The notes beneath the pieces are model-generated. The model was not told the DNA's origin. It did not search any database and saw nothing but the letters and a program-made list of their open reading frames with translations. A stretch of DNA of 18,993 nt from Triparma columacea (taxonomy: Eukaryota > Sar > Bolidophyceae > Parmales > Triparmaceae). The translations under genes and the position numbers were made by a program. Shown one piece after another: positions 420-18,393 of this stretch (position 1 is its first letter; every line of letters begins with the position of its first letter). The stretch is taken from NCBI GenBank assembly GCA_030267965.1, contig BRYA01000423.1:1-18993 (forward strand), in the 5' to 3' direction.

Positions 420-3400
420 TCACTCCCCATCCTCATCCTCAAGCGGCAGAACACTTCTAACTTTAGCCTTCCCACCTCCTACCCCTTCCATAACTCCACC
501 ATCAGCGCCTCCAACACTTGCTCTCCTAAGACTTGATCTCACAGCACCTGCTAGACCACCCTCAGCTTCAGCATCAACACTTGCTCTCCTAGCACTCTCT
601 CTCCTTCTAGCATCTCCATCTGCTGGAATGAACTCCTCTGGGACACTTGCTTTTCTCACATCAGTAAACCACTCTGGCTGCTCCTCTTCCCATTTAGCCC
701 AATTCTCCTCAACCCATTTCATAATTTCTACTTCAATCGAGACCCAGTGATGCCTGGAACTTTCAAAGACCACAATCTTCATTGCATCATTTTCTCCTTC
801 AAGGAAGTATGCCATTGACATATCCTTTGACCTCTGTGTACTCCAGAAGGTGTGCAAGTACTTCTTCTCAATGTTAAAAAAGAAAACACCAAGGCATATG
901 GTAGTTATTGGTATGAAATCATTCACAATCGATGATGCAATATATATTGCCTTCTCACCAACATTAGGTGAAGCTATATATATTGACACGGGTAGACTTA
1001 CCATTGTCAACACAAGACCAAACAACCAATAGGCTCCTCCTACTTCATTAGGATGTCTAAAGTGCACCATTGAAGTGAAGTCTACAATTATCTTTGCAAT
1101 CACCCTGGCTAAAATACTTAAAACAATCTCTAAGTTACCCCCCAATGGCACCCAGTACCAGAAGTCTCCCCTCAATATCTTAACCAACATGTACAGACCA
1201 AGGTCAGCTCCAATGTAGAAAAATGCCCATCTACCTCCCATCACCCCAAGAAGGACTATTGTTGTGCACCTTATTAGAAGCATCCCTGCTGACAACAGCG
1301 ACATAGACACAAACACTACTATTCTCTTGCTTGCTTTTGCTGGTATGTAGCCATAGAAGTCTGGTGTCTGTTCTCTCTTAGCAGGGTCCGTGTCCCAGTC
1401 ATAACTAACTGTTGCTGTGATAAAGCCTGTTGTAATTGCTGACACTGCAACTGAAAGCCATGCTGAAGTTCCAACCTCTTTGTCGCTGGTTGCTATTGCC
1501 ATAAGTTGGATGATAACTCCAGGGATGGCTTCAGCAAACATCTCAATCACTTTCATATAAGTCATCATAATCATTGGGTCAGCTGCAGCCCCAACCTCTT
1601 GCTTTACTCCAGTTGCCACCCTGTAGGCATCTACAGCAGGCTTGTACCCAATCAAAATAGGAAACCATTCCTTAAGCACCATCTTCATCCCCAACTTGCT
1701 GTTCTGTGCCCAAACAGCCAACATTTGAATCCCAATAGACACTGCCAAACTTGCCAAAGAAGCCTTAAAGTACCCATACTTCTTATCTCTCCAAAACATG
1801 TATGCCACATACACATCAGTCAGCAGATCAGACATACTAGTAATAGCCCCAACAGTCACTCTCATCTTCAACCCCCAAGGAACTTCCTCCAAAAGCCTGT
1901 AGCTAATTGTCTCGAGCATAGGCCTGAACCATTCATACTCCTCATCAAGCTCCTGTAAAGCAGGGAAATTTAATATGAATTCATCAACTGCAGCAACTGG
2001 CTGAGTATTAACAGCTAAGCTTCTTGCTAGAGACTCTCCAATCGATCTTCCATCCTTTTCCCCCAGCTCTACAGCCTTACCCTCTACCTTCCTCAACTTG
2101 CACAGCTTGTTCTTGACAACAGCACCAAGCATTGGTATGATAAACGCGTACTTCTCTGCAGCCTGCCTCAGAATGTAGTTTTGCCCAATAAATGACCTGA
2201 CAGCTTCCTCCTTTGTCATTCCCTTCTTCCTGAAACTTAATGCAACTAACAGTTGCTCTCCCAACAACTTTCCTATTTTGTTAGGACCTATACCTTCATA
2301 GTCTTGTGTAGTATCATTCACAGCATGTGAAGCAATCAGTGCACCACCATTGTCCAAGCCAACACTTGCTCTCCTCATACCTGCTCTCAAAGCACCTGCT
2401 ACACCACCCTGAGCTTCAGCATCAACACTTGCTCTCCTTATGCTCTCTCTTTTTCTAGCATCTCCTGCTCCTGGAATGTATTCAACTGGCACTCTAGCTC
2501 TCATAGCGTCATCAAACCACTTTGGCTTCTCCTCTTCCCATCTCTCCCAGTTTGCCTCTACCCATGCTCTTACTTCCGGTTCAATTGATTTCCAGTGATG
2601 TTTTGACATCTGAAATGTGTAAACTGCCTTTGTTGCCTCCTCTTTCCCATTTCTGAAGTTCTTTACTGTCAAGTCCTTACCCCTTTGAAAGCTATAGAAG
2701 GTGCTGAAGTATTTACTCTCCATGCTCATGAAAAAAACTGCAAAAGAAAATATAGTGAATGGTATAACGAGTCCAACTACTGTCCATGCCAATTTGAGCT
2801 TCTCCTCTGCAACATCTCGCCTTTGAGCTAGAATTATAGCTACTGGAAGACTTCCCATCGTCAATACAAATCCAAACATCCAATAGACTCCCCCGACTTC
2901 ATTAGGATGTCTAAACTGCACGATTGAAGTGAAGTCTACAATGATCTTTACTATCAGTCTTATCAAAATGCTACTCCCAATCTCTATGTTTCCTCCCAAT
3001 GGTATCCAGTACCAGAAGTCACCTCTCAATATCTTAACCAAAAAGTACAGACCAAGGTCAGCTCCAATGTAGAGAAAGGCCCAACTGCCTCCCATCAACC
3101 CAAGAAGAACTATTGTTGTACATCTTATTAGAAGCATCCCTGCTGTCAACAGCAACATAGACACAAACACTGCTGTTCTCTTGCTTGCTTTTGCTGGTAT
3201 ATACCCATAGAAGTCTGGTACCAACTCTCTCCTAACTGGGTCAGTGTCCCAGTCATAACTTATTGTTGCAGAGGCAAAACCTGTTGTGATTGCTGACACT
3301 GCAACAGAAAGCCATGCTGAAATTCCAACCTCTTTGTCGCTGGTTGCTATTGCCATAAGTTGGATGATCACTCCAGGGATTGCCTCAGCAAACATTTCAA

Positions 3401-4150
3401 GCACTTTCATACATGTCATCTCCATCATTGGGTCAACAGCTGCACCATTCTCTTGCTTTGCTCCAGTTGCTACCCTGTAAGCATCAACTGCAGGCTTGTA
3501 TCCAAGTAAGATTGGAATCAACTCCTGTACCACCCTCTTCATCCCTAACTTCCTGTTCTGAAACAAAACATAAAGCATCTGAAGCCCAATTGACACAACC
3601 AAACTTGCCAAAGATGCCTTGAAGTATCCATACTTCTCATCATTCAAAAACATGTATGTCACATACACATCAGTCAGCAAATCAGACATGCTTGTGGCAG
3701 CACCAACAGTCACCCTTGCCTTTAAGCCTAAGGAAGACTTCATAAATAGGTTCATAACAATCACCTCAAGCATTGGCCTTAACCACTCTTGTTCATTCAT
3801 TACTTCTTGAACTTCAGTGAATTGATGGGCCCATTCATCTACTGCATGAGCTGCAGTTGCTGTTGTCAACATGACTGCTGTCATTGCACTCCCAATCTCC
3901 CACCCCCTGGCTTCCTCCTCACTCTTATGTTCTCCCTCATTTCTGGCTCTCCTTTTAAATTTGTTCATAACCACAGCATACAGCATAGTTCTCATGAAAC
4001 CATGCTGCTCTGTAGTCTCTGTCAGTGCCCTATTGGCAACAATGAATTCCCTCACAGCCTCTACCTTGCTTTCCCCAACGTTCCTTTTCTTCACTATATC
4101 CATCAGCTGCTCTCCAAACCTCCTCCCATCCTGTTCCCCAGCTTCTGTGC
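420..4150 (-). repeat. Internal 1.85-kb tandem duplication within the giant gene
   Basis: The two membrane modules are direct repeats offset by about 1854 nt (618 codons): GACACTGCAA at 1441 recurs at 3295. Some stretches are nearly identical in DNA, notably around 1441-1545 versus 3295-3400, covering the EAIPG helix. Others are diverged, such as 2040-2330 versus 3900-4130 and the 3' part of each unit. Confidence 0.9.
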
Positions 4151-7100
4151 TATTCAGAAGGTTGTCAAAGTAGTAAGCAGCATCAGTTGCCATGCTCAGG
4201 TGCTTAATTACACTCTGTTTGCTTGCAGTTTTTCCTAAACCCTTATGTCTAATCATCATTTCAACGTCTGTCTTCATCTGGCCAGCCTCTGAGAACCTTA
4301 CAGCTGTGAGATGCCCTTCGTGTTCAACTGTGATTACAAATTTCTGGTTGTTGACACTATGAAGCTTAAGCTGGGATTCAGCTCCACTTTTGAGGCCCCA
4401 GAAGAATGCTGCAACTTCCTTGTGGGATGATCTCACAGTTATTGAAGTCTTCCCCCATCCCATTCCCTTCTCTGCCTTTATCAATGTGTGCCCAGTCAAC
4501 GCACTATTGATCTCTTGAGCTCCATCAATCTCATCAAAGTGACTTTCAATCCTTTGCACTCCCTCAATTGCAATCTCTTCCAACTTTTGAATGATCTGCT
4601 GTCTCTTGAAGGTTCCAATCTCTTGGCTCTTGTCAAACTTCTTCCTCAAGTCTGACACTTGTGCAAGAAACTTTGGGACAGTTGTGTTTTTCAGGATTGA
4701 AACTACAAAGTCTATGACACCACCAAGGTCTATATTTGTTGTCAGGGTCACTGATGTTTGTGGAACACCTCCAATAGGATCAAGCGGCGCGAATACCCAC
4801 ACAGTGTGTACCTTTAAAAACACATTCTCAGCCTTCACTGGATAGTCTTCATGAAGCTCCTCTGTGTCTGTAACATCAATGATAACTTTGCCGTCATCTT
4901 GCTTGAACCAGGTAATTTTACTCCGACCATCACGTGGAGCAAAACCAGGGAGACCAAATTCTCTTGTTGTTACGTAGTAGATGGTGTGGGGATTTACTTT
5001 GATGACTTTCAAGAAGGTTATTCCATCTACTTTTCTTGCGTTTCTTGTGTTTTCTCGGTTGCCTAGTTTTGAAATCTCATTTGCTGCACACTCCTCCACA
5101 CTAGCATCTACTACAGTAGTCGCATAACAAGTCCCACTGCTTGCCCCATCAACATGAACTAGCTTCATCTTGACCCTCTCATCGGGACTCTTCAAATCAT
5201 CAAAGTTCTTGTCCTCCCTGCACTTCTCAAAGAATTCCTTCCCCTTCCTGATTGCAGCCTTCTCCTCGTCAGTATAATCTTGGCGCTCATTCTTGATGAT
5301 GTTGGCAAGAGAGGCCAGTGCAGCTTTATCAACCTCTTCATCCCGATTGAAGGAGTCCCTTAGTGTTGCTATTGCACTTAGTCCTCTTGGTATTGTTCTG
5401 TTGACAACATTTACTGGAATGTGCCCCCCTGCATCCATAAATTGGGTAAATGTGAGTATACACTGGTGGACACCATCTTGGTCCTCAATGTTCTTTGCAA
5501 TTAGAATTCCACTAGTTGTTGCCCGCACAAGCTTTCCAAGGTTTACCCCATAGTCAACCTTCTCCTCAGCTGGGACAAATGCCACAGACATGTTGCCGTC
5601 TAGGTGTCCCCTATGCCACACGAACCTCAACACAAACTCTCTTTTGTGAAGAGGGAAGCGAAGTTTCTTGACTGTCGCAAACAGCTTCTCATTTACCCTT
5701 CCCTTGCCACCCTTCCTCATCTCCAGCCTTGCAGGGTCCCCTTCCTCTCGGCTCATTACCATCCTCTCCCTACTGCAGTACTCAAAGAACCAAGCAGCTG
5801 CTTCCTCGGCTGAGCAGTCGGCAACACACTCGGCTCTTCCAAAACCGAGTGTCTTTTCCCCTCTTTCCTGCTGCTTGTACATGCTCTCCATCTTCACTCC
5901 CCCATAAGGTGACTCAAGAGGCCCCCACCCTTTTTCATCCTCCCCACCAAAGAGCTCCTCCACCTCCTTAAACACCTTCTTCTGGTCCTCCTCCAACTCA
6001 ACACCCTCCCTCATCCTCTCCGCCAAGGCCCCCCTGACCTCAGCGTCAACCTTCTTCCCATTCCTCCTGAACTTCTCCTGCAACATATTTGCATCTTTCA
6101 TCCTGGATTTAGCGAGCATTTCTAGGACAGGCCTTGGCAAATTCATCTTCAAGTCGTTAGTTTCAATCTTAGTATAGGAGCAGACATTTGGGGCAAGTTC
6201 AGTAATGACTTGTGTTCCAAAAGACTTGCAGGGGATGTAGTCTACCAAATTCATGTCCTGAAAGTTGTTTCCGTCTATAGGTACAAAGACCATTACAAAG
6301 GCTGATCTACCTGTCTTGAGCATTACCTTTTTCCACAAAAGTAAGGTTTGGAAAACCCTGTTCTCATAAAGTCCAGGGAACCTCATTGCCACACAGTAGA
6401 GTGTACTATTCTTTCCTTTCTTTCTGATAACCCTTGGTAAACTGCCATGCTTCTTCTTGTGTAGCTGTGACCTCTCATATGTGTTCATTTCATACAGTTC
6501 TGCTAAGAGCCTTGTGGCAGATGTGTCAACATTCATCAACATTGCACCCCAGTACTGTCCCTCTTCCCACCAAAATAGCTTGTCAATGCCCTCCTTCAGT
6601 GTCCCCTTGACTCTCTTCCCCTTTGTTTGAAGTCCCTTCTCTAGGCTCCCAACCCTATCCAACATTGCCTCCTCCTCTGTTGTCAGGTGCGGTGCCCTTG
6701 GCATGACCTCCTCCACAAAGTGTCTTTTCCTCCTCTCATCAATGACAGCAGGCTGTTTGAACTCATCCATTACATCATTGAGAATTCCCTTCAATGAGGT
6801 ATAGGCAGACTTGGTGACGCTTTTCCCGTCACTTTTGAAACTAGGGTGCGCACTTATGAAACTAGGGTGCGCACTTATGAAACTAGGGTGCGCACTTATT
6901 TCATAAGTGCGCGCACTCTTTGAGCTTTTGACTGTGCGAACATCAGCTTCTGGTTTCATCTCTGCTGCTCTCTCCTCTGCCTTAAGAGTTCCCACCACAG
7001 TGACTGCAGATTGTCCAAACTCAAAGTCAGTGAAGCTGAGCTCCCCCTTAATGACACCTCGCTTGACAGTCTTGGTATTTGTTAAAGCTAGAATCTCGAC

Positions 7101-7982
7101 AAGCTTTGCAGTTGCCTCGTCAGAAAGATCGTCCTCATCAAGGGGTGCCAACTCCATAATGCTAGTTGATTCGTCGGGGGAGACGACGCTGATGTCGAGG
7201 AGAAATTCGACAAACTTATTTCCGCTGCCGTAGTGCTGCCAGTAGACGAGTCTGTGAATGACTCCTTCCTTTTCGTCATACTCCTGAAGAGTCTTCCTCC
7301 GGAATTTGCCCTGCTCACAATCGGTGAGGAGAAAGTCAATGATCTTGTCGCGTTCGTCGTGGAAGACATCAGCGAGCTCCATAACCTTCACATTGACACC
7401 GGTAGAGTTGTCGATGAGGCCTTCAACGGCTCCTCTCTCCTCAAGAAGCTTCAAAAGTTTGCCTTGCTCGGGTCCAAGAGCTGCAAAATCAATATCTACG
7501 GGGCCGTGTATTGCGGAGGGTGTGTGATTGGGGCTGGAGAGGGGCTGCGGGGAGGCTTTGTTCCTGACAGTGCTGTCAGGAACTAATGTCATGGACTGAG
7601 CAGCAGTGGGGAGGCTATCAGTCGCAAGGCCGACTGGCGTGTGGCCGGGAGTCGCGCACCCAACAGCCCTGTCAACCTCCTCATCAGTCTGGGTGGCTCC
7701 GCCGATGTTTACGAGGGACGCTTTGTTTTCCTCGGCTTTTTCCTCCACCGAATTTGCGTTGCCACCGAGGCCGTCAGGAGGATCGTCGACGCGAAAAAAA
7801 CGTCCATTCTCCATATTATTGTCGTCGCTAGAGTCAATAACATCTTCAGGAGCACCAAATATCCCCTCGCTCACCCCGCTGGCGATGTCGATGGCTTTTC
7901 CGTGATCCTTGAGGCCATGCTCGACCTCGCTGCTGGCTACAATATGCTTGTCCTCCTGCTGAGGGCTGTCTTTAGTGCTCAT
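420..7982 (-). CDS. Giant multi-START, double membrane-module protein (2520 aa)
   Basis: An uninterrupted 2520-codon frame runs from ATG at 7982 to TGA at 420-422. Residues 1-160 are acidic and low-complexity. Three regions with START/Bet v1-like lipid-binding character follow, near 405-640, 690-900 and 930-1110, and a weaker fourth at 1155-1270. The C-terminal half is two tandem copies of one membrane module, about 1290-1900 and 1905-2520, each with some eight hydrophobic helices. Each carries the motifs MSDLLTDVYV, GYKPAVDAYRVATG, MFAEAIPGVIIQLMAIATSD, LRGDFWYW and FRHPNEVGG. The E-A-I-P-G-x-x-I-Q helix is reminiscent of XK-related scramblase proteins, a tentative likeness. Each copy ends in an Arg/Ser segment with RRASV motifs (about 1843-1880 and 2461-2496) that look like basophilic kinase sites. 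A lipid-sensing or lipid-moving membrane protein is the simplest reading; substrate and membrane are unknown. The 3' end faces the telomere. Confidence 0.9.
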   Translation of the reverse strand: MSTKDSPQQEDKHIVASSEVEHGLKDHGKAIDIASGVSEGIFGAPEDVIDSSDDNNMENGRFFRVDDPPDGLGGNANSVEEKAEENKASLVNIGGATQTDEEVDRAVGCATPGHTPVGLATDSLPTAAQSMTLVPDSTVRNKASPQPLSSPNHTPSAIHGPVDIDFAALGPEQGKLLKLLEERGAVEGLIDNSTGVNVKVMELADVFHDERDKIIDFLLTDCEQGKFRRKTLQEYDEKEGVIHRLVYWQHYGSGNKFVEFLLDISVVSPDESTSIMELAPLDEDDLSDEATAKLVEILALTNTKTVKRGVIKGELSFTDFEFGQSAVTVVGTLKAEERAAEMKPEADVRTVKSSKSARTYEISAHPSFISAHPSFISAHPSFKSDGKSVTKSAYTSLKGILNDVMDEFKQPAVIDERRKRHFVEEVMPRAPHLTTEEEAMLDRVGSLEKGLQTKGKRVKGTLKEGIDKLFWWEEGQYWGAMLMNVDTSATRLLAELYEMNTYERSQLHKKKHGSLPRVIRKKGKNSTLYCVAMRFPGLYENRVFQTLLLWKKVMLKTGRSAFVMVFVPIDGNNFQDMNLVDYIPCKSFGTQVITELAPNVCSYTKIETNDLKMNLPRPVLEMLAKSRMKDANMLQEKFRRNGKKVDAEVRGALAERMREGVELEEDQKKVFKEVEELFGGEDEKGWGPLESPYGGVKMESMYKQQERGEKTLGFGRAECVADCSAEEAAAWFFEYCSRERMVMSREEGDPARLEMRKGGKGRVNEKLFATVKKLRFPLHKREFVLRFVWHRGHLDGNMSVAFVPAEEKVDYGVNLGKLVRATTSGILIAKNIEDQDGVHQCILTFTQFMDAGGHIPVNVVNRTIPRGLSAIATLRDSFNRDEEVDKAALASLANIIKNERQDYTDEEKAAIRKGKEFFEKCREDKNFDDLKSPDERVKMKLVHVDGASSGTCYATTVVDASVEECAANEISKLGNRENTRNARKVDGITFLKVIKVNPHTIYYVTTREFGLPGFAPRDGRSKITWFKQDDGKVIIDVTDTEELHEDYPVKAENVFLKVHTVWVFAPLDPIGGVPQTSVTLTTNIDLGGVIDFVVSILKNTTVPKFLAQVSDLRKKFDKSQEIGTFKRQQIIQKLEEIAIEGVQRIESHFDEIDGAQEINSALTGHTLIKAEKGMGWGKTSITVRSSHKEVAAFFWGLKSGAESQLKLHSVNNQKFVITVEHEGHLTAVRFSEAGQMKTDVEMMIRHKGLGKTASKQSVIKHLSMATDAAYYFDNLLNSTEAGEQDGRRFGEQLMDIVKKRNVGESKVEAVREFIVANRALTETTEQHGFMRTMLYAVVMNKFKRRARNEGEHKSEEEARGWEIGSAMTAVMLTTATAAHAVDEWAHQFTEVQEVMNEQEWLRPMLEVIVMNLFMKSSLGLKARVTVGAATSMSDLLTDVYVTYMFLNDEKYGYFKASLASLVVSIGLQMLYVLFQNRKLGMKRVVQELIPILLGYKPAVDAYRVATGAKQENGAAVDPMMEMTCMKVLEMFAEAIPGVIIQLMAIATSDKEVGISAWLSVAVSAITTGFASATISYDWDTDPVRRELVPDFYGYIPAKASKRTAVFVSMLLLTAGMLLIRCTTIVLLGLMGGSWAFLYIGADLGLYFLVKILRGDFWYWIPLGGNIEIGSSILIRLIVKIIVDFTSIVQFRHPNEVGGVYWMFGFVLTMGSLPVAIILAQRRDVAEEKLKLAWTVVGLVIPFTIFSFAVFFMSMESKYFSTFYSFQRGKDLTVKNFRNGKEEATKAVYTFQMSKHHWKSIEPEVRAWVEANWERWEEEKPKWFDDAMRARVPVEYIPGAGDARKRESIRRASVDAEAQGGVAGALRAGMRRASVGLDNGGALIASHAVNDTTQDYEGIGPNKIGKLLGEQLLVALSFRKKGMTKEEAVRSFIGQNYILRQAAEKYAFIIPMLGAVVKNKLCKLRKVEGKAVELGEKDGRSIGESLARSLAVNTQPVAAVDEFILNFPALQELDEEYEWFRPMLETISYRLLEEVPWGLKMRVTVGAITSMSDLLTDVYVAYMFWRDKKYGYFKASLASLAVSIGIQMLAVWAQNSKLGMKMVLKEWFPILIGYKPAVDAYRVATGVKQEVGAAADPMIMMTYMKVIEMFAEAIPGVIIQLMAIATSDKEVGTSAWLSVAVSAITTGFITATVSYDWDTDPAKREQTPDFYGYIPAKASKRIVVFVSMSLLSAGMLLIRCTTIVLLGVMGGRWAFFYIGADLGLYMLVKILRGDFWYWVPLGGNLEIVLSILARVIAKIIVDFTSMVHFRHPNEVGGAYWLFGLVLTMVSLPVSIYIASPNVGEKAIYIASSIVNDFIPITTICLGVFFFNIEKKYLHTFWSTQRSKDMSMAYFLEGENDAMKIVVFESSRHHWVSIEVEIMKWVEENWAKWEEEQPEWFTDVRKASVPEEFIPADGDARRRESARRASVDAEAEGGLAGAVRSSLRRASVGGADGGVMEGVGGGKAKVRSVLPLEDEDGE
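6837..6912. repeat. Triplicated 21-bp coding repeat ending in a hairpin
   Basis: Three perfect 21-bp copies lie at 6837-6857, 6858-6878 and 6879-6899. They encode ISAHPSF three times near residue 362-382 of the giant protein, in a linker ahead of the first START-like region. The last copy ends in GCGCACTTAT (6890-6899), followed after a 3-nt loop by its exact reverse complement ATAAGTGCGC (6903-6912). The repeat length keeps the frame. Confidence 0.95.
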
Positions 7983-9210
7983 TTCGAAACACGAACTGGC
8001 TTTCTTGATGTCTAATGGTGCGGGTGCGTTAGGGTGGATTGACGGGTTCGGTGAGGCTTAGTGAATGACAAGTCGAGCTTCATGTGCTATTTACGACCAG
8101 TTTCAAGAATTTGCCGAGAAGGCCCCCTTGTACCCTACAATCTTGCCATCTGCTGTGTTCTTCTTCCATTGATCTCCACAATGAAAAGGTTTTCGAAGGC
8201 CTCGAAGCGTCACTTTCTCGACATATTACCCCCCCCCCCACTTCTGCGTCACTTACCTTGACGAATATGCTGTCCGCAAGCTTAGGAATGAGCCTGGAGC
8301 AGGAGGGCTCAGGTCAGGATGGACAATGGTGTGGTTTGTTGGACGGCGGGGGAGTCAAATATGCAATGAGGTTCTGGTGGGAGTCGTAGATGAATGCAAA
8401 AGGTGAGTTACGGGGTGCGAGATGTCCTAATGGGGGAGATCACCAAAACCAGTAAGAGCAGTTGCGGCGAGGGGGAGTGTTGGGGGAGGCCTAGGGGAAG
8501 TTTCGCTTCAACGAGGAAGGTTTTGCTTCGAGTTCGATGTCGAGAAGAGCTGAGGTGCTCTTAATTTGGTGTTAGGTAGTCGTACACTAGATTAATTTTG
8601 TGGTTAAGGATGTGCACTTGCAAATCGAAAATCGGAAAAATTGAATTGTCTATTTTATACCTACTAAATATTTATTGTTATTTACAATCAATATTATAAA
8701 CTAAAATAGTATATATGATAATATGAAACTTGTTTTGATATCTCAAGAATATAATTTTAGTAATGTCTCAAATGTAACTTGATATATTCAATTATCTCAA
8801 ATATATACTAGGTTGAATATTATCTTATGTTTATAGTGCCTAAATAAATATTTGAAATTTCTCAGGTGTAAAATATTTTGCTATATGGATTGGTGTACAT
8901 TTTGAAATCAATTGAGGAAATAATAAACAAACATTAAAATATTTTGGTAACAACAAAGAATTTAGAAGACTTTTGAAAAATGTTGCGAGCAAAGGCGATT
9001 TTTGTCAATGACAAACAAACGTAGTCTTTTTTCATAAAGAGCGTAACAGTTGTCGATATTCTTAGTCCTTTCTACGTCCCTTGTAATTCGCAAACCTATT
9101 GAACACATCTTACCCTCTCCGACGCCACCAATAACCCAAACCACTCTGAACATTTCAACCCTCGTCCCGACAGATACAAGGAACAAGTCAAATTTCCCAA
9201 GACCCAACGA
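7983..9210. other. Divergent intergenic region with AT-rich core
   Basis: This 1.2-kb gap separates the starts of the leftward giant gene and the rightward PDZ gene, so it should hold both promoters. About 8585-8990 is strongly AT-rich with many A/T runs, against mixed or GC-rich flanks. An 11-C run lies at about 8229-8239. I see no convincing ORF, tRNA or TATA element whose position could be defended. Short frames here have no recognisable protein character. Confidence 0.6.
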
Positions 9211-10253: not shown

Positions 10254-10352
10254 AATATTACTTTTGCAAAAGAATATCTTCGTTCCCAAAATTTCACACT
10301 CCTCGCTTGGACTCCAACCAGTTATTTCAATCATTCAACATAGAAAACAGAC

Positions 10353-11819
10353 ATGGGCAACATTTGCTTTGCCGACACCTCCATGGCCTCCAAGCCCGTT
10401 TCATCCCCTCCGGCGCAAACTGTTCCCCCAGTCTCTTTGCCTTCCCTTCCATCCCCTCCTATCACCAATACTGAACCCGAGGCTTCTCCTCCCTCTCCTC
10501 CCTCTCCTCCCTCTCCTCGCTCTCCCGTCCCTTTCGACGAGGAGTTGAAGAACATTGCGACGAAGAGAGCGGAGAGGGCGCTTGCTAACAAGGCTGAGGA
10601 GCTGCAGCGTGTGGCCAAAGAGGTTGCTGAAGCCAAGGAGGCCCAGGCTGCTAAGCTCAAAGAGGCAGAGGCTAAAAGGGAGGCGGCCGAGAAGAAGCGA
10701 AAGGAAGCGGAGCTGCTGGAGCAAGCGTACCTTGCCAATAAACAGTCCCAAGACGCAGCCCTTGCCGTCAAGGAAGCATCGTCTAGGGAAGCCACCCTGA
10801 AGGAGGTCGCCCAAAGGACGAGGCTTGCCGCCGATGCTGCACTGGGCACGGATAGCGAAGATCCTGCTGATCAGTCTGCAAATGCTGCGGAGGAAGATGC
10901 TCGTAGGGCTTCAATAGCAACTAGGGATGCTATAGAGAAGTCAATTGCTATAACCGATGTAAACGCCGAGGCGTCAGACCTTTTGAAGTCCAAGATGGCG
11001 ACAATCGAGAGCGCTGAGTGGACCGTGGCTCGCGTCTTCGCCCTTTTTGATGTCGACGGAGATGGGAATCTCGACAGGGACGAAATTAAGGCTGCGATTA
11101 CCGCCATTTCCGAATCTGTCCCATCCGACGTCCAATTGGCTCAAGCTTTCGAAAAGTACGATGCCAATAATGACGGAACGTTCCAGCGCGAAGAGCTCGA
11201 GGCTATGCTTAGCGATGAGCTGTTGCAGCGCAAGCGCAAAGGTTCTGTGTTTGGACGCAAGAATAAGGACATCGACATCGAGGAGAAATTCACGGTGCAG
11301 CAGGTCAAGGAGGACCTTGTCGCGAAGGAGCTCGTGTTGATGATTGGTAAAGAGAAAGAGGAAGTTGAAAGTATGGCCGAAACCGTGAACAAGACTCTCA
11401 CTGACCACGAAGAGAAGCTCACGGAAGTCTTGACCCAGGCGAAATCTCTGGAGGAACAGGTTGCTCGGCAGGAGAAGGTGGTTGGGTCCATTAAGGTTGG
11501 AGAGTGGAGCAACGAGCGCGTTTTCGCTGCTTTCGACGCCGACAACAATGACAACCTCGACGTTTCTGAGCTCAAGCTTGCCCTCACAGCCCTCCTCGAG
11601 AAAGAGGTGTCCAATTCCGACGCCGCCAAACTCGTCAAGAAGTACGACGTCGATGGCGACGGCTTCCTGAACTTTGACGAGTTCTGCGCGTGTGCAAAGA
11701 CGGCGGAGGCGAGCCTCAACAACTTCTTCAGCCAGATGTTCTCGGATGTGTCTGCTTCCGAGGAGGCCACGAGGGAGGCGAGGGCAGCAGTGGCGGAGAT
11801 GGAGGGCAAGGCTGATTGA
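10353..11819 (+). CDS. Four-EF-hand, coiled-coil, probably N-myristoylated protein (488 aa)
   Basis: ATG at 10353 begins MGNIC, a context typical of N-myristoylation on Gly2 with possible palmitoylation on Cys5, so membrane attachment is likely. Residues 15-60 are Pro/Ser-rich with an SPP repeat encoded by a 9-bp DNA repeat. Residues 61-160 are a long Ala/Glu/Lys helix, probably coiled coil. Four canonical Ca2+ loops follow in two pairs: 233-244 DVDGDGNLDRDE, 270-281 DANNDGTFQREE, 395-406 DADNNDNLDVSE and 432-443 DVDGDGFLNFDE. The pairs are separated by about 110 residues of charged helix. All loops have acidic first and last positions, so Ca2+ binding is expected. No enzyme domain is seen; a calcium-responsive scaffold at a membrane is the best guess. 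The frame has no introns. Confidence 0.93.
   Translation: MGNICFADTSMASKPVSSPPAQTVPPVSLPSLPSPPITNTEPEASPPSPPSPPSPRSPVPFDEELKNIATKRAERALANKAEELQRVAKEVAEAKEAQAAKLKEAEAKREAAEKKRKEAELLEQAYLANKQSQDAALAVKEASSREATLKEVAQRTRLAADAALGTDSEDPADQSANAAEEDARRASIATRDAIEKSIAITDVNAEASDLLKSKMATIESAEWTVARVFALFDVDGDGNLDRDEIKAAITAISESVPSDVQLAQAFEKYDANNDGTFQREELEAMLSDELLQRKRKGSVFGRKNKDIDIEEKFTVQQVKEDLVAKELVLMIGKEKEEVESMAETVNKTLTDHEEKLTEVLTQAKSLEEQVARQEKVVGSIKVGEWSNERVFAAFDADNNDNLDVSELKLALTALLEKEVSNSDAAKLVKKYDVDGDGFLNFDEFCACAKTAEASLNNFFSQMFSDVSASEEATREARAAVAEMEGKAD
10485..10525 (+). repeat. 9-bp CTCCTCCCT-type microrepeat encoding SPP
   Basis: About four tandem copies of a 9-bp pyrimidine-rich unit encode the Ser-Pro-Pro run in the N-terminal linker of the EF-hand protein. 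The unit length preserves the frame, so copy number could vary without harm. Confidence 0.85.
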
Positions 11820-11919: not shown

Positions 11920-14900
11920 TTACGAGACCACCAAGTCGTCGTACAGCCCCATTTCGTTATCTTCCTCTGACCCATGCTCCTCCTTGGTGATGTGATCCCC
12001 CTCCTTCTTCTCAACCTCAAGAGTCCCATTGCCACTCGTCATTTCCTCTTCTCCCCCGTTGGCCATCTTTATCCTCTTCGCTTCCACCTCTCTATCTCCA
12101 CTCCCATTCGGGCTCGCATTCCCACTCGTATTCTTGCTCCCATTCCCCTGCCCGTTCTCGTTCCTCCTTAGGCCCTCCCTGACCGTCAACCATCCCTTTC
12201 CGTAGCCTCTCCACCCCCCCCCCTCTCCATCCATCGCCCCGCTGTTCAGCTCCCCGAACCACGCATGCGCGAGGGCCTCCTCGACGCCCACCCTGTTCAA
12301 GGGATCCAAAACTAGGAGCTTGCTCATGAGGTCAACGAACCCTTCCCAGTTCCCCTTCTTCCCCTCCAATACCATACCGAGCCACTTCTCCACTCCGGGC
12401 TTGTACTTCTTCCCCCCCCCGCTAAGCATTTCCTTTTTGTAGTCTTTGTAAAGGGGCAAGCCTTTCCCCCTCTCGAAGTTGCTGCTCCCGATGCTGCCGA
12501 CAATCTTGGTGATGGCGATGAACGTCCCGACCCTGTTTGGGTTCTTGTCCTTGGAGGAGAACGCGTGCTTGCCGAGGGCGAGGCTAGCAACTAAAGCCCC
12601 GACAAGCCACATGTCGGTCTTAGGGGTGTACCTTGTTGCCCCGAGAAGCACCTCAGGGGCGGCGAAGGGCAGGAAACTCTTCCCAAGCTTGAGCTCCTTC
12701 TCTTTCTCCTTGCCACTGCTGATTCCGCTCATGTCGTCGCTCTCCTTCCAGCTGACGGCGCCCCCAACGCTGCTCATCACGAGCCTCCCATCGTCGGCAA
12801 TTGCGACCCCGGCCATTTCCATCTTCCCCACGCACATGTTGTTCTCGTGCAGGCCCTTGCAAATGTTGAGCAAGTCCAGGGTCAGGCCCCGCAAGTAATC
12901 AACTCCGATGGGTGTTCTCGTCTTGATGAAAGCCTGGACCAGCATCGCCATGGTATAGGGCGTCGCGATTTTGTTTACAAAGTGCAATCCCCAAAGCTCG
13001 TCGCACCCGTTGCTCCTAGTCATGTCCGAGGCGGTCACCTTCTTAACCTCTGACTCGATCTTTCTCTTTCTATCGTCACCCTTCTTCTTGGGTTTCCCCT
13101 TCTTCTTCGTCGCCAATTTGTCAATATCAAAGTTGTCCTCCTCCTCTTTGGCCGCATTCTCCCCTTCATCTAAAGATCTGGCCTTCTTCAGCTTCTCGTC
13201 GTCCTTCAGAACCCCCACTGGAAGCAAGAAACACATGTTACCCCCTGTGCCGCGTTGGGCGTGCAATTTGTGCAAAAGGTTGAGTTCCTGCAAGGCAATC
13301 GGGGAGAAGCCGAGGGACTTGGTGTCTACCTTCATCATGGCGAGCTTCACGGTCTCCTTAACCGCCAAGGTGGTTGGGGGCCACCTGCTGAGCTCGAGGA
13401 TTTCCTCGCACCCGTTGCCCCCCGCAGCCCCGTTGAGGTATTCCACGACCTTGCTCTGATCCTCGATGCGCCCTCTGCCCCTCCAGCACTCTATGTTCAT
13501 GAGGTGTGCGACAGTGGCGAGATTGTGCTTGAGGGGCAGAAGGTGCGAGAGCCTCGCGGTGGCGACAGCACCGAAGGGGAGCTTATTGTTGCGAATGACG
13601 TTGAAACTCGGGGCAATTTTTTTGATGGCAGAGGCGTCAATGATGCCACCGTTGCCCTTCCTCCCCTCCCTGAACTCGTCGACCTCCGCTCCGTCACTAG
13701 CCCTCTGTGCATTCACTGTCAGTCCCTCTTCCTGGCTGACAAGCATTTCGATGAATGTGAGGACCCCCCTCTCGCTGCCCTTCACGGTGGCCTCCTCTCT
13801 GCCCCTGTCAACAGTGACGTTGCAGAACGTCGTCCTCCCGAGCTTGGCGATTTTATCTTCGAACGACTGCTTCTCCAGGGCATTCTTAAGACCGGAGATC
13901 CTCGCGAACATAGTCAATTCCTCCCAGCCCAGCCCTCCCGCCTCGGCCTGCAGTGCCTGGGCGGAGGGGAGAGAGAAATCCCCCCCGATCATAGCGAATA
14001 CTCCGGCAGCGTCAACGTGATCGGGGTACTTATCGTTGGTGAGGGCTGGAGCGTAGCGGATAATATCGGTCGCGCAGTCTTCGACGTCGTCGCGGGACAT
14101 GACTCCCATCCCAGCGAGGAGCGTAGATGCGGAGCTCTCGGTCCTGTCGAAGAGGAGGTAACATGCAGCGGAGAGGGTATTGCAGTCGTACTTCCCCACG
14201 AGGCGGCCTCCGCCGAGGGCCATGATCTGCCCGCTCCTATAGACCGCCTTGGCGAGGCCCAGGCAGTTTTGAACATGCCCGCTCGTCCCCAATATCTTTT
14301 CGATCTTCTTCAGCCCCCAGAAACCGTGGTCGCTGACGACGTTCAGCTTCAAAGCCTCGAGAAGTATACTTTCCAGTTTGAGGACTCTTTCCATGATGAC
14401 ATCGACCTCTTCCTTTCGCATGGGATTGTTGGGGTATATGGTACCGTAGTATGTCTTGACGAGCAAGGCGAGCGGTTTGAGCGACTTGAAACTTTTGCTG
14501 AAGAGCTTGGAGCTCTTGTGTGCAACGAAGAGGGCAGCGACTGCGAGGTCCCGGGTGTCCTTCGTGGAACCGCCCGAATAGAAGCGGGAGAAGACGGCAG
14601 CAGCGTGCAGAGCGATAGAGGTATCGAAAGAGGACCTGTTGGTGATAGTGACTTGGTGCAGGATGATAAGTTCCGAAGTAGCCGCACGCTGATCCGCTAG
14701 GGAGAGGTTCTCGATGGGCAGAGCGGAAGAGCTGGCCGTAAACATGGACCCCGCGATGTAATCTGCCTTGAGGTTGTGCAGTGAAATGACTGATTGGGCA
14801 ACTGCCTTGAGCCATTTTCCCGGGCTCAGCTCGTACTTGGACGGCACCTGGATATTCGGGTAGGCCTTGATCTCGAGCCAGCCTTCCCCGTCGTAAGAAA

Positions 14901-15883
14901 ACGAGGCGAATCTGGCGAGGAATTCCTCCAGGGGGGCCCTGACCTTGGCATAAGTCGAAGGGGAGGCACGAACGAAGTGAAAGCCTTTCTTGATTTTATC
15001 AGTGTGTGAGGTGAAGTCAGCATGGACTGTCAAGTCGATCTGGGAGGGAAGTACGCCCTCGTAGAAGACGTAAAGGCTCTGATCCATGACAACGACCTTG
15101 ACCCTGCCCCCCAACTTGGCCGCCAAGAAGTCCAAGTACTCCTGCGTGCGGCGAGCATTCGTTAGTTATATCTTCACACTAGCGACCCCCTGAAGTGTCC
15201 CAACCGTCGCCATTTCTTCTCACCTCGTCAACATTGTCGACGTCAAGTTTCCTCCCGCAAAAGACCGGCGCCGCTCCGGCCGCCTCGCACATTTTATCAG
15301 CCAGCCCATCTGCTCCGATCTCCGGCAGTGTGATCTTAACTAAGTTGTAACCCCCGATGTCGCCTTTTGGGTACATCACCTTGGAGGCAGGTATTTGAAC
15401 GGCCTTATGGACCTCGATGTTGACTCCACTGGAGGGGTTGACTAGCTGCATGAGGGCGGCCCGGGAGTCATCGAGGGAGGTGAGGACGGAGGGGTCGCAG
15501 ATTATATAGGCTGACATCGTCGGCATCTTTGGGTGGGGAAGGGGGAGGTGACCCGTGGCTGCGGCTGCCGCCGAGCTCTCTCGGAGCTGGTTGAAAATCT
15601 TGTTGGCCGAGAACTCGAGCTCTGCGATCGCTTCTATTGCTCTCTGCCCGACGTACGAGATTTCGATGAGATCCTTGTCTTGCGGCGTTAGGCCAAGCGC
15701 CATCATGAGCTCTTCCATTGGTATCTTGCCGCGGGGCTTGACCTTCTGCTCCATTTGACAGTTTAGCTTGGACGATATGCTCTGGGGGATCACCTTGAGG
15801 GCGGTGTAAATGCTGCGCACGAGGAGCAAGGGCTTGCTTTTCTGTTTCATTGTGTCAAGTGACTTCCTGTCAGGCTTCGGTGA
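11920..15883 (-). CDS. Segment of the fusion: unknown domain, cyclin boxes, CDK-like pseudokinase
   Basis: An ATG at 15850 could start a stand-alone 1282-residue protein, and the frame is also open upstream to the acceptor at 15883. Numbering is for the fusion. Residues 400-750 are unrecognised. A cyclin K/T-like double box follows: FSRFYS, the ALFVAHK helix with K818, and LESILLEAL with E866, matching the Lys/Glu pair that contacts CDKs. The kinase part has AMMK (K1213), a PSTAIRE-like SPIALQE helix (E1228), APEVLLGATRY (1437-1447) and DMW (1452-1454), all close to transcriptional CDKs. The catalytic loop reads LHENNMCVGKMEMAG in place of HRDLKxxN and the DFG position reads SVG, so phosphotransfer is unlikely. 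A Lys-rich insert at about 1266-1311 could be a nuclear localisation signal. The frame start near 15135 is TTG, which supports an upstream exon. Confidence 0.9.
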
Positions 15884-17250
15884 CTGCGGAGGAGGAGGAC
15901 GAGAAGCGAAGCGACGACGTTAGTGACACGCGCGTTCCATTCTTAACCTCCCATAATTCCCTCACCATTTTACGCTCAATAACCTTTCCGTGCATGTCTA
16001 GATCCCCGTTGTCCCCGTCGAAGACAGTGACCTTTGCGTTGCTGCGGTTTCGTTGTTTGGGGTTGGCGCACGCATCGGTAATTTTCGTAAGGGTTAGTTA
16101 TATTTTTGGGGGCCTGTTCCCCCCCCGCCGGGCCCATTAGCTCTCTCTGGCATCCTCACCTGTTCCCTGCGCCTTGCCTCTTTTTAATCTCCGTGGGTGC
16201 TAGGCTTTCGTCGAAGACGAGGAAGTCAGAGGAAGCTGGGATGGAGGGGTCGAGGAGCTCCTTAGCCTCCTCGCCGTCGCAAGTGTACTTCACATCGTGC
16301 TTGTTGGTGGATGGGTCGTAGTCGTACACCTCGGCCTCGAGGTAGGAGTAGTTCCCTTCGAAGTAGATCTTTACCTTCTTCCCAACTAGCTCCTTGGCCC
16401 TCTCATCGGGCTTGGGCCTCCTCCAGTTACCCATAGCCTTCCCAGTCTCCGGGTCCTCGACCCACACCTCCGTTTCCAAGAAGCCTCTGCACGAGGGGGT
16501 ACCGCAGTAGCATTTGGTCCTCGGCCTGCCTGGCCTCCTCTCCCACTGGTAATCGAAAGTGAGCTCGGCGCCCTCGGGGATCGTGCGGGTGGCCATGACG
16601 CACATTCTGTAGCCCCCCCTGACCTTCCACTTGTCCATGGTGCAGTTGGGCTCACAGGAGTGGTTGATGAAACGAGCCGCGCCACCCTTCTTGCGGGCAT
16701 CAATGTAGACACCCTTGGTCAGTTGGAGGATGTACAGCATTCGTTCGCCCTTGTAGCTGCGGAACCTTTCCGACAGATCCTTCTCGCCAATTACCTCGCC
16801 GCAGTACTCGATTATAAAGGAGCCCTTGGGGATCTCCTTGCGTGCAAAGAGACCATGGCCCTTGTTTGGGGTGGGAGAGATTATGAGTTGGGACCACTGC
16901 TTCTTTGAGATCCTGTTGTTGCGGCAATTTATCCCTATGCGACATCCGGACCCGCACTCCTCTGCGTTTGCGAGCGTGCCAAGGGGAAGAAGGTTAGAGG
17001 GACGTAACACGGTGGTGGGTTGGGGTGTATTTTGGACGTTATACGCTGTTAACTCACCCATCATTGCGTAGTTGCTACAGCTATTGTCCGTGCAACTCCC
17101 AGTGGAGCACTGGCACATCTCTGCACGCTTGGCTGGAGGGCAAATTAGAGTCGTCGAGTTTGTCGGCCACAATACCTCAGATGTCAACTCAAAGTCTGGG
17201 GGCATTTGGGACGCGGGATGCAGCTGTATGTTGTTTCCGATGTTAGTCAT
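11920..17250 (-). CDS. Predicted SET methyltransferase-Tudor-cyclin-CDK pseudokinase fusion (1682 aa, 4 exons)
   Basis: Proposed exons are 17250-16160, 16041-15966, 15883-15224 and 15141-11920, totalling 5049 nt or 1683 codons with the stop. Junction phases are 2, 0 and 0, and each preserves frame. Domains in order are AWS 46-118, SET 119-235, post-SET 247-259, Tudor-like about 288-389, an unrecognised region about 400-750, two cyclin boxes about 770-975, and a CDK-like pseudokinase about 1196-1575 with a charged, Asn/Gly-rich tail. The apparent stop at 16156-16158 is the TGA inside a GTGAGG donor. All introns carry CTAAC 24-55 nt before the acceptor. A nuclear, transcription-coupled chromatin role is inferred from the domains. 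The alternative is two adjacent genes only 19 bp apart (stop at 15870, ATG at 15850), with independent splicing coincidentally in frame. I favour the fusion but transcripts are needed. Confidence 0.68.
15142..15223 (-). other. Predicted 82-nt intron (phase 0)
   Basis: Donor GACGAG|GTGAGA at 15223 and acceptor CACGCAG|GAG at 15142, with TATAACTAAC as branch site (CTAAC complement at 15161-15165). Without splicing the upstream frame stops at 15179-15181 and the downstream frame has no ATG near its beginning. Splicing gives VDNVDE|EYLDF. Confidence 0.88.
15884..15965 (-). other. Predicted 82-nt intron (phase 0) linking SET and cyclin parts
   Basis: Donor AAAATG|GTGAGG at 15965, branch CACTAAC (complement of CTAAC at 15919-15923), a pyrimidine tract CTTCTCGTCCTCCTCCTCC and acceptor GCAG at 15884. 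Splicing joins HGKVIERKM to SPKPDRKSLDT and runs in frame into the ATG at 15850. Retention instead leads to TGA at 15870-15872. Confidence 0.72.
15966..17250 (-). CDS. Segment of the fusion: AWS-SET-postSET-Tudor histone methyltransferase
   Basis: The first ATG is at 17250. A Cys-rich AWS region (CQC at 46-48, then paired cysteines to C109) precedes a SET domain with all hallmark motifs: GHGLFA 131-136, EYCGEV 148-153, RFINHSCEPNC 193-203 (cofactor-binding NHSC) and ELTFDY 229-234. The post-SET zinc motif CYCGTPSCRG is at 247-256. AWS plus SET plus post-SET defines the SETD2/NSD/ASH1 class, which methylates H3K36, so H3K36 is the expected substrate. Residues 288-334 look like a Tudor/chromo-barrel domain (GKKVKIYF, YDPSTNKHDVKY), which continues in exon 2 (VTVFDGD, MHGKVIERKM). 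RRPGRPR at 238-244 resembles an AT-hook. If intron 2 is retained the protein ends at TGA 15870-15872 with 420 residues; if intron 1 is retained it ends at 364. Confidence 0.93.
16042..16159 (-). other. Predicted 118-nt intron (phase 2) hiding an apparent stop
   Basis: Donor GGGAACAG|GTGAGG at 16159, branch TATAACTAAC (CTAAC complement at 16093-16097) and acceptor AACCGCAG|C at 16042. The TGA that seems to end the SET frame lies inside the donor. After splicing the codon AG|C gives Ser and the frame continues as NAKVTVFDGD. Confidence 0.8.
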
Positions 17251-17555: not shown

Positions 17556-17778
17556 TTACCGCTTTTTGAAGCCGTACTGAAGGGAAGGAGGGGAGGACGA
17601 GGAGAGGGGGGGTTAGGGTTTGTTGGGAGGGTTGAAGTCGTTTGGTCAGTGGGGGGGGGTGGTCGGTTTGGGGGTTCTTGAGGGTCAACACACACACACA
17701 AACACACACACACACACACACACGCGCACGCGCGCGCATACGAACACACGCAGGCGCACACGTACGCACACACACGCC

Positions 17779-17813
<35 letters not shown>

Positions 17814-18393
17814 CCCCCCCCCCTCCCCCTTGACCCAACTTGCCGCGCTCACCTTCTTCTCCTGGTAGAAATTGTCCTTCTTGGCCTCTCCTAAATTAAC
17901 GATCTTCGGGCATCCGTCTCTATCCTTCTCGAGCTGCGTGCACTCCCTGCAATAGTATGCGTCTGTGACTCCCTGGTTGTCGCAGATCACGCACTTGCCG
18001 CCGTTGGAGGTGCCGCCACCGCCCTGGCCGTAGCTACACTCGTCGCAGACGTGGACGAGAGTGTGAGGGTTCACGAAGGAATCACAGATGGGGCACTGGG
18101 GTGGAGGGTGGAGGGAGGGGTGGGGATTAGGTTTTGGTTTTAGAAAACTCATACCGAAAGCCTCAATCTTGCGTCTTTCAACCCCCTGTTCCCCCTTTCC
18201 CCTACAAAATACTCCCCTCCCCTAATCCTCCCCACCGCCATCGACTGTCTTGTTCTCTCTCCCGCCCGTGACCATGTGTGGCGTGTTAGTCCTCCCTTAT
18301 TCTCACCTTTCCGTCGCATTTATAGCACAGCCTTCCGATACTAAGGCCTGGCTGACGGCGACAGAATATAAGGTCGGCGTGATGCTTCGCCAT
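17556..18393 (-). CDS. PHF5A: PHF5A / SF3b14b / Rds3-type splicing factor (116 aa, 3 exons)
   Basis: Exons are 18393-18307 (29 aa), 18095-17853 (81 aa) and 17576-17556 (YGFKKR plus stop). Exon 1 begins [16 protein letters not shown] and ends CYKCDGK; exon 2 begins CPICDSF and ends YQEKK. Junctions are phase 0 with GTGAG donors. Order, start, cysteine pairs and the KYGFKKR end match the highly conserved PHF5A family, a small zinc-knot subunit of the U2 snRNP SF3b complex that helps form the branch-point adenosine pocket. Human PHF5A has 110 residues; the extra length here is mainly a Gly-rich insert ([11 protein letters not shown]) before the KCVICDNQG segment. A cysteine seen in the human protein after the CDSYVRP segment appears as His here. 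Orientation is the same as the SET gene downstream. Confidence 0.97.
17577..17852 (-). other. PHF5A intron 2 (276 nt) with microsatellite
   Basis: Donor GAGAAG|GTGAGC at 17852, acceptor CTTCCTTCAG|TAC at 17577, branch CCCTAACC (CTAAC complement at 17612-17616) and a clear pyrimidine tract. It contains the CA/CG repeat near its donor. Confidence 0.93.
17687..17812. repeat. (CA)n/(CG)n microsatellite, alternating purine-pyrimidine
   Basis: About 125 bases of almost pure alternating purine-pyrimidine: CA runs, a central CGCGCACGCGCGCGCATACG block, then CA again, followed by nine or more C. Such sequence is prone to Z-DNA. It lies wholly inside PHF5A intron 2, appearing as TG repeats in the pre-mRNA. 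Confidence 0.97.
18096..18306 (-). other. PHF5A intron 1 (211 nt)
   Basis: Donor GGAAAG|GTGAGA at 18306 and acceptor CCACCCCAG|TGC at 18096, with CCTAATCC as a likely branch site and a long pyrimidine tract. Splicing joins CDGK to CPIC exactly as in the family. Confidence 0.95.

Follow-up and report, generated by a model that had tools for sequence, protein, structure and literature searches.

A fusion of an inactive kinase resembling the cyclin-dependent kinases (CDKs) behind a histone-lysine N-methyltransferase has been described in the stramenopile Phytophthora infestans as PITG_14137, orthologs being reported from P. ramorum and P. sojae but not from other species, H. arabidopsidis included, and no cyclin being mentioned in the section that describes it (PMC3019232, 2010). 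The same study reported CDK-cyclin fusions in which the catalytic Asp is changed to Asn, present in Phytophthora, H. arabidopsidis, two ciliates and Theileria and absent from two diatoms (PMC3019232). Diatom SETD2 homologs have been presented as AWS-SET-PS proteins, to which polar centric and some raphid pennate species add motifs IV-VII; neither 'cyclin' nor 'kinase' occurs in the main text of that paper (PMC10421102, 2023). A diatom SET-JmjC fusion is also on record and is distinct from a SET-cyclin-kinase fusion (PMC3145265). In yeast, Set2 interacts with the phosphorylated C-terminal domain (CTD) of RNA polymerase II (Pol II), and its recruitment has been tied to the kinase activity of Ctk1, dimethylation being possible without the SRI domain or Ctk1 (PMC3335468). 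Here we report that a contig of Triparma columacea (BRYA01000423.1, 18,993 nucleotides, taken in full and hereafter called the window; contig C396 of the searched genome, which has 37.85 Mb in 789 contigs) carries on its minus strand, at 17250-11920, what its exon joins and domain order indicate to be a single gene encoding a single predicted fusion protein, in which a SETD2-class putative H3K36 methyltransferase is followed by a cyclin and a CDK-like pseudokinase.

As worded for PITG_14137, the architecture of a methyltransferase followed by an inactive CDK-like kinase is also that of the window protein, which differs in having a cyclin; the two are compared by description, not by sequence. 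The first-pass annotation of this DNA had held that no such protein was described, a statement contradicted by PITG_14137, and the kind is therefore not new. What appears to be new, as far as our literature survey goes, is the cyclin placed between SET and kinase, its likeness to Ctk2 and cyclin T, the conservation of interface residues and the presence of the fusion in both Parmales and diatoms. That survey, largely not full-text, covered SET-cyclin, SET-kinase and CDK-cyclin fusions and yielded PMC3019232 as the sole description of a SET-kinase fusion. The Asp-to-Asn CDK-cyclin fusions of the same paper likewise hold a probably inactive CDK-like kinase and a cyclin in one chain, but they contain no SET domain and have the kinase first, in the opposite order. 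The diatom SETD2 homologs share the AWS-SET-PS unit with the window protein, cyclin and kinase not being named in the main text; at a guess, their motifs IV-VII could be the cyclin-pseudokinase module, which would offer a possible identity for elements left without a function there (PMC10421102).

The three introns proposed by the first-pass annotation (introns 2 to 4 in table 1) lie where it had placed them, with the GTGAGR donors, CTAAC motifs and phases 2/0/0 that it gave. Its product of 1682 residues, however, had to be corrected to 1650 residues and four introns, since it retained intron 1, which lies inside the AWS region and was overlooked because, being stop-free and a multiple of three in length, it does not interrupt the frame. 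Removal of intron 1 produces the reading CSNYAMM-EECGSGC, matching Triparma retinervis protein P0002 (CSNYAMMEECGASC) and protein P0005 (CSNFAMQEECGSNC), and the spliced protein therefore has 1650 residues once all four introns are taken out. The strict pattern GTGAGR..CTAAC..YAG occurs exactly three times on the gene strand of 17250-11920, a number reached in none of 200 dinucleotide shuffles (mean 0.31, maximum 2), but a looser pattern is not significant (four sites observed vs a shuffle mean of 3.2, with 79 of the 200 shuffles reaching four). We therefore dropped the intron motif alone as proof of splicing and base the joins on homology.

Every one of the four exon junctions is crossed by the predicted protein of some relative. 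P0005 (217 residues, from ENA) crosses junction 1, reading CSNFAMQEECGS, and its N-terminus resembles that predicted from the start at 17250, which is loosely matched by P0072 as well. P0004 (229 residues, ENA) spans junctions 2 and 3, extending from the end of SET through the Tudor-like domain and exon 3 into the first part of exon 4; because it contains, between its SET and Tudor parts, a stretch that is missing from the window and T. retinervis and resembles a retained intron, it probably represents genomic DNA read as a plain open frame. The protein P0003 (1255 residues; jgi, lgn, ena) crosses junction 4 but begins inside exon 4, and is therefore uninformative on the upstream SET. Exon 4 of the window, which is uninterrupted, connects P0004, which ends in it, with P0003, which starts in it. 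These three sequences, P0003 to P0005, were compared as proteins and would correspond to intron-less genomic frames.

In T. retinervis, the genome of which was annotated by BRAKER2 with RNA-seq (PMC10328945), a single gene model (TrRE_jg7010, our P0002, 1685 residues) is annotated with both SET and kinase domains. It starts with a truncated SURF1 domain, probably a chimera of the gene model, because SURF1 sits on another contig here (C483) and both P0005 and P0072 begin without it; SURF1 was thus ruled out as a part of the fusion architecture. P0002 also lacks about 31 residues found after the Tudor-like domain in both the window protein and P0004. That prediction errors do occur, as this spurious SURF1 start probably illustrates, could lend some credit to the idea of two separate adjacent genes united by gene prediction only, and unspliced intron 2 would indeed bring an immediate in-frame stop at 16159. 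Yet P0004 runs continuously from SET into exon 4, past the positions of introns 2 and 3, the 12 residues of exon 3 that precede its first Met (VTVFDGDNGDLD) are identical in P0002, and two further relatives, P0073 and P0074, keep an identical domain order. On the evidence of P0004, P0003 and the P0073/P0074 pair we reject the two-gene reading, which we regard as hardly credible.

The methyltransferase half of the protein is readily recognized. Its SET domain matches Pfam SET at 1.1e-26, and in a PDB search SETD2 is the best match (1.6e-45), ahead of ASH1L and NSD chains; its AWS-SET-postSET catalytic unit has NHSC, FDYQ and CxCxxxxCRG stretches, which align with SETD2. On this basis we classify it as a SETD2-class, putative H3K36 methyltransferase. 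The Tudor-like domain that follows is weak (PF21743, E 0.29, under its cut-off). SETD2 and Set2 have an SRI domain, whereas the window protein has a cyclin and a CDK-like pseudokinase, and scans with Pfam hidden Markov models (HMMs) give no SRI hit in any of the three open reading frames (ORFs) of the gene at E<=1, none at E<=0.1 in P0073 and P0074, and genome-wide a best match of 0.052, under the cut-off and interrupted by stops. The gene is therefore not classed as a canonical, SRI-bearing Set2, a situation shared with MET-1 of Caenorhabditis elegans, which likewise is without SRI (PMC10421102). The other H3K36-class SET gene that was looked at (contig C398) adjoins ORFs reading as PHD fingers and has NSD2 as its best match. 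In the SET tree, eleven of P0006-P0019, which are SETD2-like and come from a length-limited search that would hide longer forms, group beside the rows of diatoms and Parmales. In the three of them that were read (P0006, P0007 and P0010), SET is likewise followed by a Tudor-like stretch and a WLDE motif, and the SET-Tudor arrangement may for this reason be older than the addition of cyclin and kinase.

The cyclin module shows two predicted runs of helices, of which the first box alone is supported by both profile and model. When its sequence profile is compared with the PDB, cyclin T comes first, and cyclin T1/T2 account for 13 of the 24 matches and for all those with E < 0.1; the modelled box has its best match in Ctk2, the cyclin of yeast CTDK-I. 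Box fold and profile are hence both nearest to the transcription cyclins (Ctk2, T, K and L), strengthening the link with cyclin T/K-type transcription kinases that the first-pass annotation had drawn. The Lys of A.K and the Glu aligned with the E of cyclin T1 LES, the hallmark pair of the cyclin box, are kept in all seven sequences. The window cyclin therefore has in common with Ctk2 of CTDK-I and cyclin T of P-TEFb the box fold, the sequence profile and the paired Lys/Glu, but differs from both in being internal to a methyltransferase and in having a dead CDK-like partner in cis. A cell-cycle module, in which a cyclin A/B-like component or a MAPK-like pseudokinase would make histone marking follow the cell cycle, appears very unlikely given that all 13 cyclin matches with E < 0.1 are cyclin T1/T2 and that Pfam Cyclin_N scores 0.014 here vs up to 5.7e-45 elsewhere in the genome.

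The kinase domain belongs to the CMGC group, as indicated by the matches of its profile (A4) in the PDB (FUS3 1.9e-28, CDK13 9.7e-24, CDK12 1.9e-23) and by a PSTAIRE-like helix combined with C-lobe motifs. Across 55 fetched loci, excluding its own gene, the best match of the same profile is a CDK12-like frame on contig C359 (1.7e-25, the next being 7.4e-21). The window helix GFSPIALQE, read as PSTAIRE-like by eye, follows a GFS..ALxE pattern kept in all five aligned rows, as are TDxW and LDPxxR, while APE is found in four of them (PPE in P0073). The catalytic aspartates of HRD and DFG are both gone in all five: the Parmales-side rows have VG-K at HRD and S-V/I-G at DFG, and P0073 and P0074 have, respectively, LRG and MRN at the former and IGS and FAG at the latter. 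We thus consider the domain to be a predicted pseudokinase, not an active CDK. The GFS..ALxE helix and the cyclin Lys/Glu are interface residues in cyclin-CDK pairs, and the pattern of conservation suggests that selection kept the residues by which cyclin and CDK hold each other, not those required for kinase work.

The same residues bear on the proposal that a working cyclin box captures an active free CDK, for example the CDK12-like one of C359, thereby recruiting a CTD kinase to the methyltransferase, the pseudokinase serving only to stabilize or compete. The retention of the box Lys and Glu in all seven sequences fits with this proposal, as does the existence of the free CDK-like frame on C359, with its HRDLKTAN and ADWG motifs; nevertheless, the CDK-like fold of the same chain keeps its cyclin-facing helix in every row, and the cyclin is on that account probably occupied in cis, leaving capture of a free CDK rather unlikely.

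Exon 5 has its nearest relatives in an ENA protein (99% identity) and in T. retinervis (77%). A full-length search with P0002 returned seven proteins at E<=1e-40, query included, among 7985 scored candidates: P0001-P0003; P0072 of T. laevis f. inornata (1042 residues), with SET and an alignment over the cyclin part but no kinase match; P0073 (ncbi, 1850 residues), with SET and Pkinase; P0074 of the diatom Cylindrotheca fusiformis (1832 residues), with SET, Cyclin_N (0.006) and Pkinase (4e-23); and P0075 of Stephanocyclus meneghinianus, a partial sequence with SET that aligns over the cyclin part. In the seven-sequence alignment P0073 and P0074 are colinear from AWS to the C-terminal tail, the region from Tudor to cyclin being poorly aligned. 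The SET tree (34 rows, midpoint root) places four Parmales-side rows (the window, two named and one other) together with five diatom-side rows (two of them named) with support of 99/95; P0073 is called diatom-side because it groups with diatom rows in this tree. Bolidophyceae, the class of the small marine Parmales alga T. columacea, are the sister group of diatoms (PMC10328945). Since the rows of Parmales and diatoms group together, the common ancestor of the two most likely already had the fusion. The fused architecture that the first-pass annotation had proposed to seek in related genomes is thus found in T. retinervis and in diatom-side proteins, and its order of SETD2-class SET, cyclin and CDK-like pseudokinase in one gene is borne out by Pfam, PDB, profiles and relatives alike.

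Taken together, these features suggest a mechanism in which cyclin and pseudokinase would fold onto each other, forming a catalytically inactive copy of CTDK-I/P-TEFb, the Pol II CTD kinase. The resulting pseudo-CTDK module would hold the SETD2-class enzyme at elongating polymerase, a task performed by the SRI domain for yeast Set2 and human SETD2, and H3K36 would thereby be methylated during transcription; the Tudor-like domain may add a contact with chromatin. The CTD itself would be phosphorylated by a free CDK12-like kinase with the product of a separate cyclin K/T-like gene; the genome contains CTD heptad repeats (contig C203) and, by reading, candidates for both (on C359 and C360, respectively). 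We give an even chance to the central proposition that the module replaces the undetected SRI and couples the enzyme to elongating Pol II. The fused pair would then be a CTD kinase copy retired from catalysis and put to use in connecting the methyltransferase with Pol II. An evolutionary extension of this proposition, that in diatoms, Parmales and perhaps oomycetes a CTDK-I/P-TEFb pair was duplicated, became catalytically inactive and took over from SRI as the Pol II arm of SETD2, is plausible but somewhat less probable than the coupling itself. Alternatively, the cyclin-pseudokinase half could be an allosteric switch or an autoinhibitory lid on SET without direct contact with Pol II, and pseudokinases often act allosterically. 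Set2 itself is reported to carry an auto-inhibitory domain in addition to SRI (PMC4446442). However, the best relatives of the cyclin are cyclins of transcription elongation, which points to Pol II over pure allostery and makes this alternative improbable in our opinion.

Several observations weigh against coupling to Pol II through a former CTD kinase, or against its antiquity. The cyclin model is modest (mean predicted local distance difference test score, pLDDT, of 70.2), its fold match is confined to model residues 37-168, and cyclin T2 (14.6), cyclin L2 (13.8) and cyclin A (13.2) lie close below Ctk2. Foldseek returned no match for this model at E<=0.001 and low template-modelling (TM) scores, its first row being a chain of the Pol II pre-initiation complex, followed by cyclin K; the low scores are perhaps due to mis-oriented boxes in the model. 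The window cyclin alone, with the E value already given, is under the Pfam cut-off, and the best match of the cyclin profile among the other fetched loci (0.025) is not significant. FUS3, CDC2-type and MAPK chains outscore CDK13 and CDK12, and the kinase is therefore not specifically CTK-like by PDB score. The whole model of exon 5 has a pLDDT of 30.7 (from a four-row alignment), docking of cyclin and kinase being our interpretation, and the absence of SRI relies on HMM scans, which can miss diverged domains. Finally, diatom rows share with the window 19-25% identity in the cyclin and 28-30% in the kinase, and several sequenced Parmales are missing from both relative searches, which may be due to the length window of the search or to split gene models, loss being the alternative.

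If the proposed coupling to Pol II is correct, a route that in yeast leads from CTD kinase to H3K36 methylation via separate proteins and a reader of phosphorylated CTD would here have its module inside the methyltransferase. Because genes that become fused in one lineage are often linked physically or functionally, the gene would provide independent evolutionary evidence for the pathway connecting CTD kinase with H3K36 methylation. It might also explain how H3K36me3 is targeted in diatoms without SRI, this mark accompanying active genes in one diatom (PMC10421102).

Other candidates were discarded. A viral or phage origin was rejected, since none of 51 pattern matches to the kinase in viral contigs was confirmed as a relative and no relatives of exon 5 were found in phages. 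In the diatom proteins, the region before the cyclin looked by eye as if it might contain KH-like domains; these are not claimed, given that the region has no PDB match at E<=10 and that KH is absent among Pfam matches at E<=5, the counterpart region of the window having been searched within whole ORFs.

Table 1. Features of the window, with positions counted from its first nucleotide.
Feature	Position	Strand	Description
Exon 1	17058..17250	-	start codon, N-terminus, first half of cysteine-rich AWS region; splice model
Intron 1	16962..17057	-	96 bases, phase 1, GTGAGT...CGCAG; inserted residues absent in P0005 and P0002
Exon 2	16160..16961	-	remaining AWS, SET domain, post-SET, Tudor-like domain
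Intron 2	16042..16159	-	118 bases, phase 2, GTGAGG, CTAAC, CGCAG; P0004 protein continuous here
Exon 3	15966..16041	-	76 bases; linker, conserved in P0002 and P0004
Intron 3	15884..15965	-	82 bases, phase 0, GTGAGG, CTAAC, CGCAG; P0004 protein continuous here
Exon 4	15224..15883	-	Tudor-like-to-cyclin region; conserved with P0002, partly with P0003
Intron 4	15142..15223	-	82 bases, phase 0, GTGAGA, CTAAC, CGCAG; P0003 protein continuous here
Exon 5	11920..15141	-	cyclin module, further region, predicted CDK-like pseudokinase, low-complexity tail, stop; Pfam Pkinase 3.9e-11
Cyclin module	13993..14709	-	amino acids 722-960 of spliced protein
CDK-like pseudokinase (predicted)	12163..13401	-	amino acids 1158-1570; profile A4 and motif columns
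Upstream neighbour gene	17556..18393	-	exons 18393-18307, 18095-17853, 17576-17556; separate from fusion gene
2545-residue frame	420..8057	-	two XK-related stretches
491-residue frame	10344..11819	+	reads as coiled-coil and EF-hand protein

Elsewhere in the genome, contig C228 (about 15.8-17.3 kb; locus L038, 589-2121) contains a 510-residue frame in which a CDK-like kinase, matching CDK2 at 6.6e-47 and with HRN replacing HRD by reading, is joined to a cyclin that matches Cyclin_N at 5.6e-32; it is a candidate CDK-cyclin fusion resembling the Asp-to-Asn ones of PMC3019232. Within the window, the fusion gene lies about 300 bases downstream of a neighbour which we take, by reading, to be PHF5A-like; the introns of this neighbour also begin with GTGAG, and on the gene strand the second of them (17852-17577) includes a long microsatellite of GT/TG. 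The single 2545-residue frame on the minus strand has its best Pfam match to XK-related proteins at 3.3e-8 (residues 1451-1777), with no confident Pfam match in its N-terminal half. The 491-residue frame is convergent with the fusion gene, at a distance of about 100 bases.

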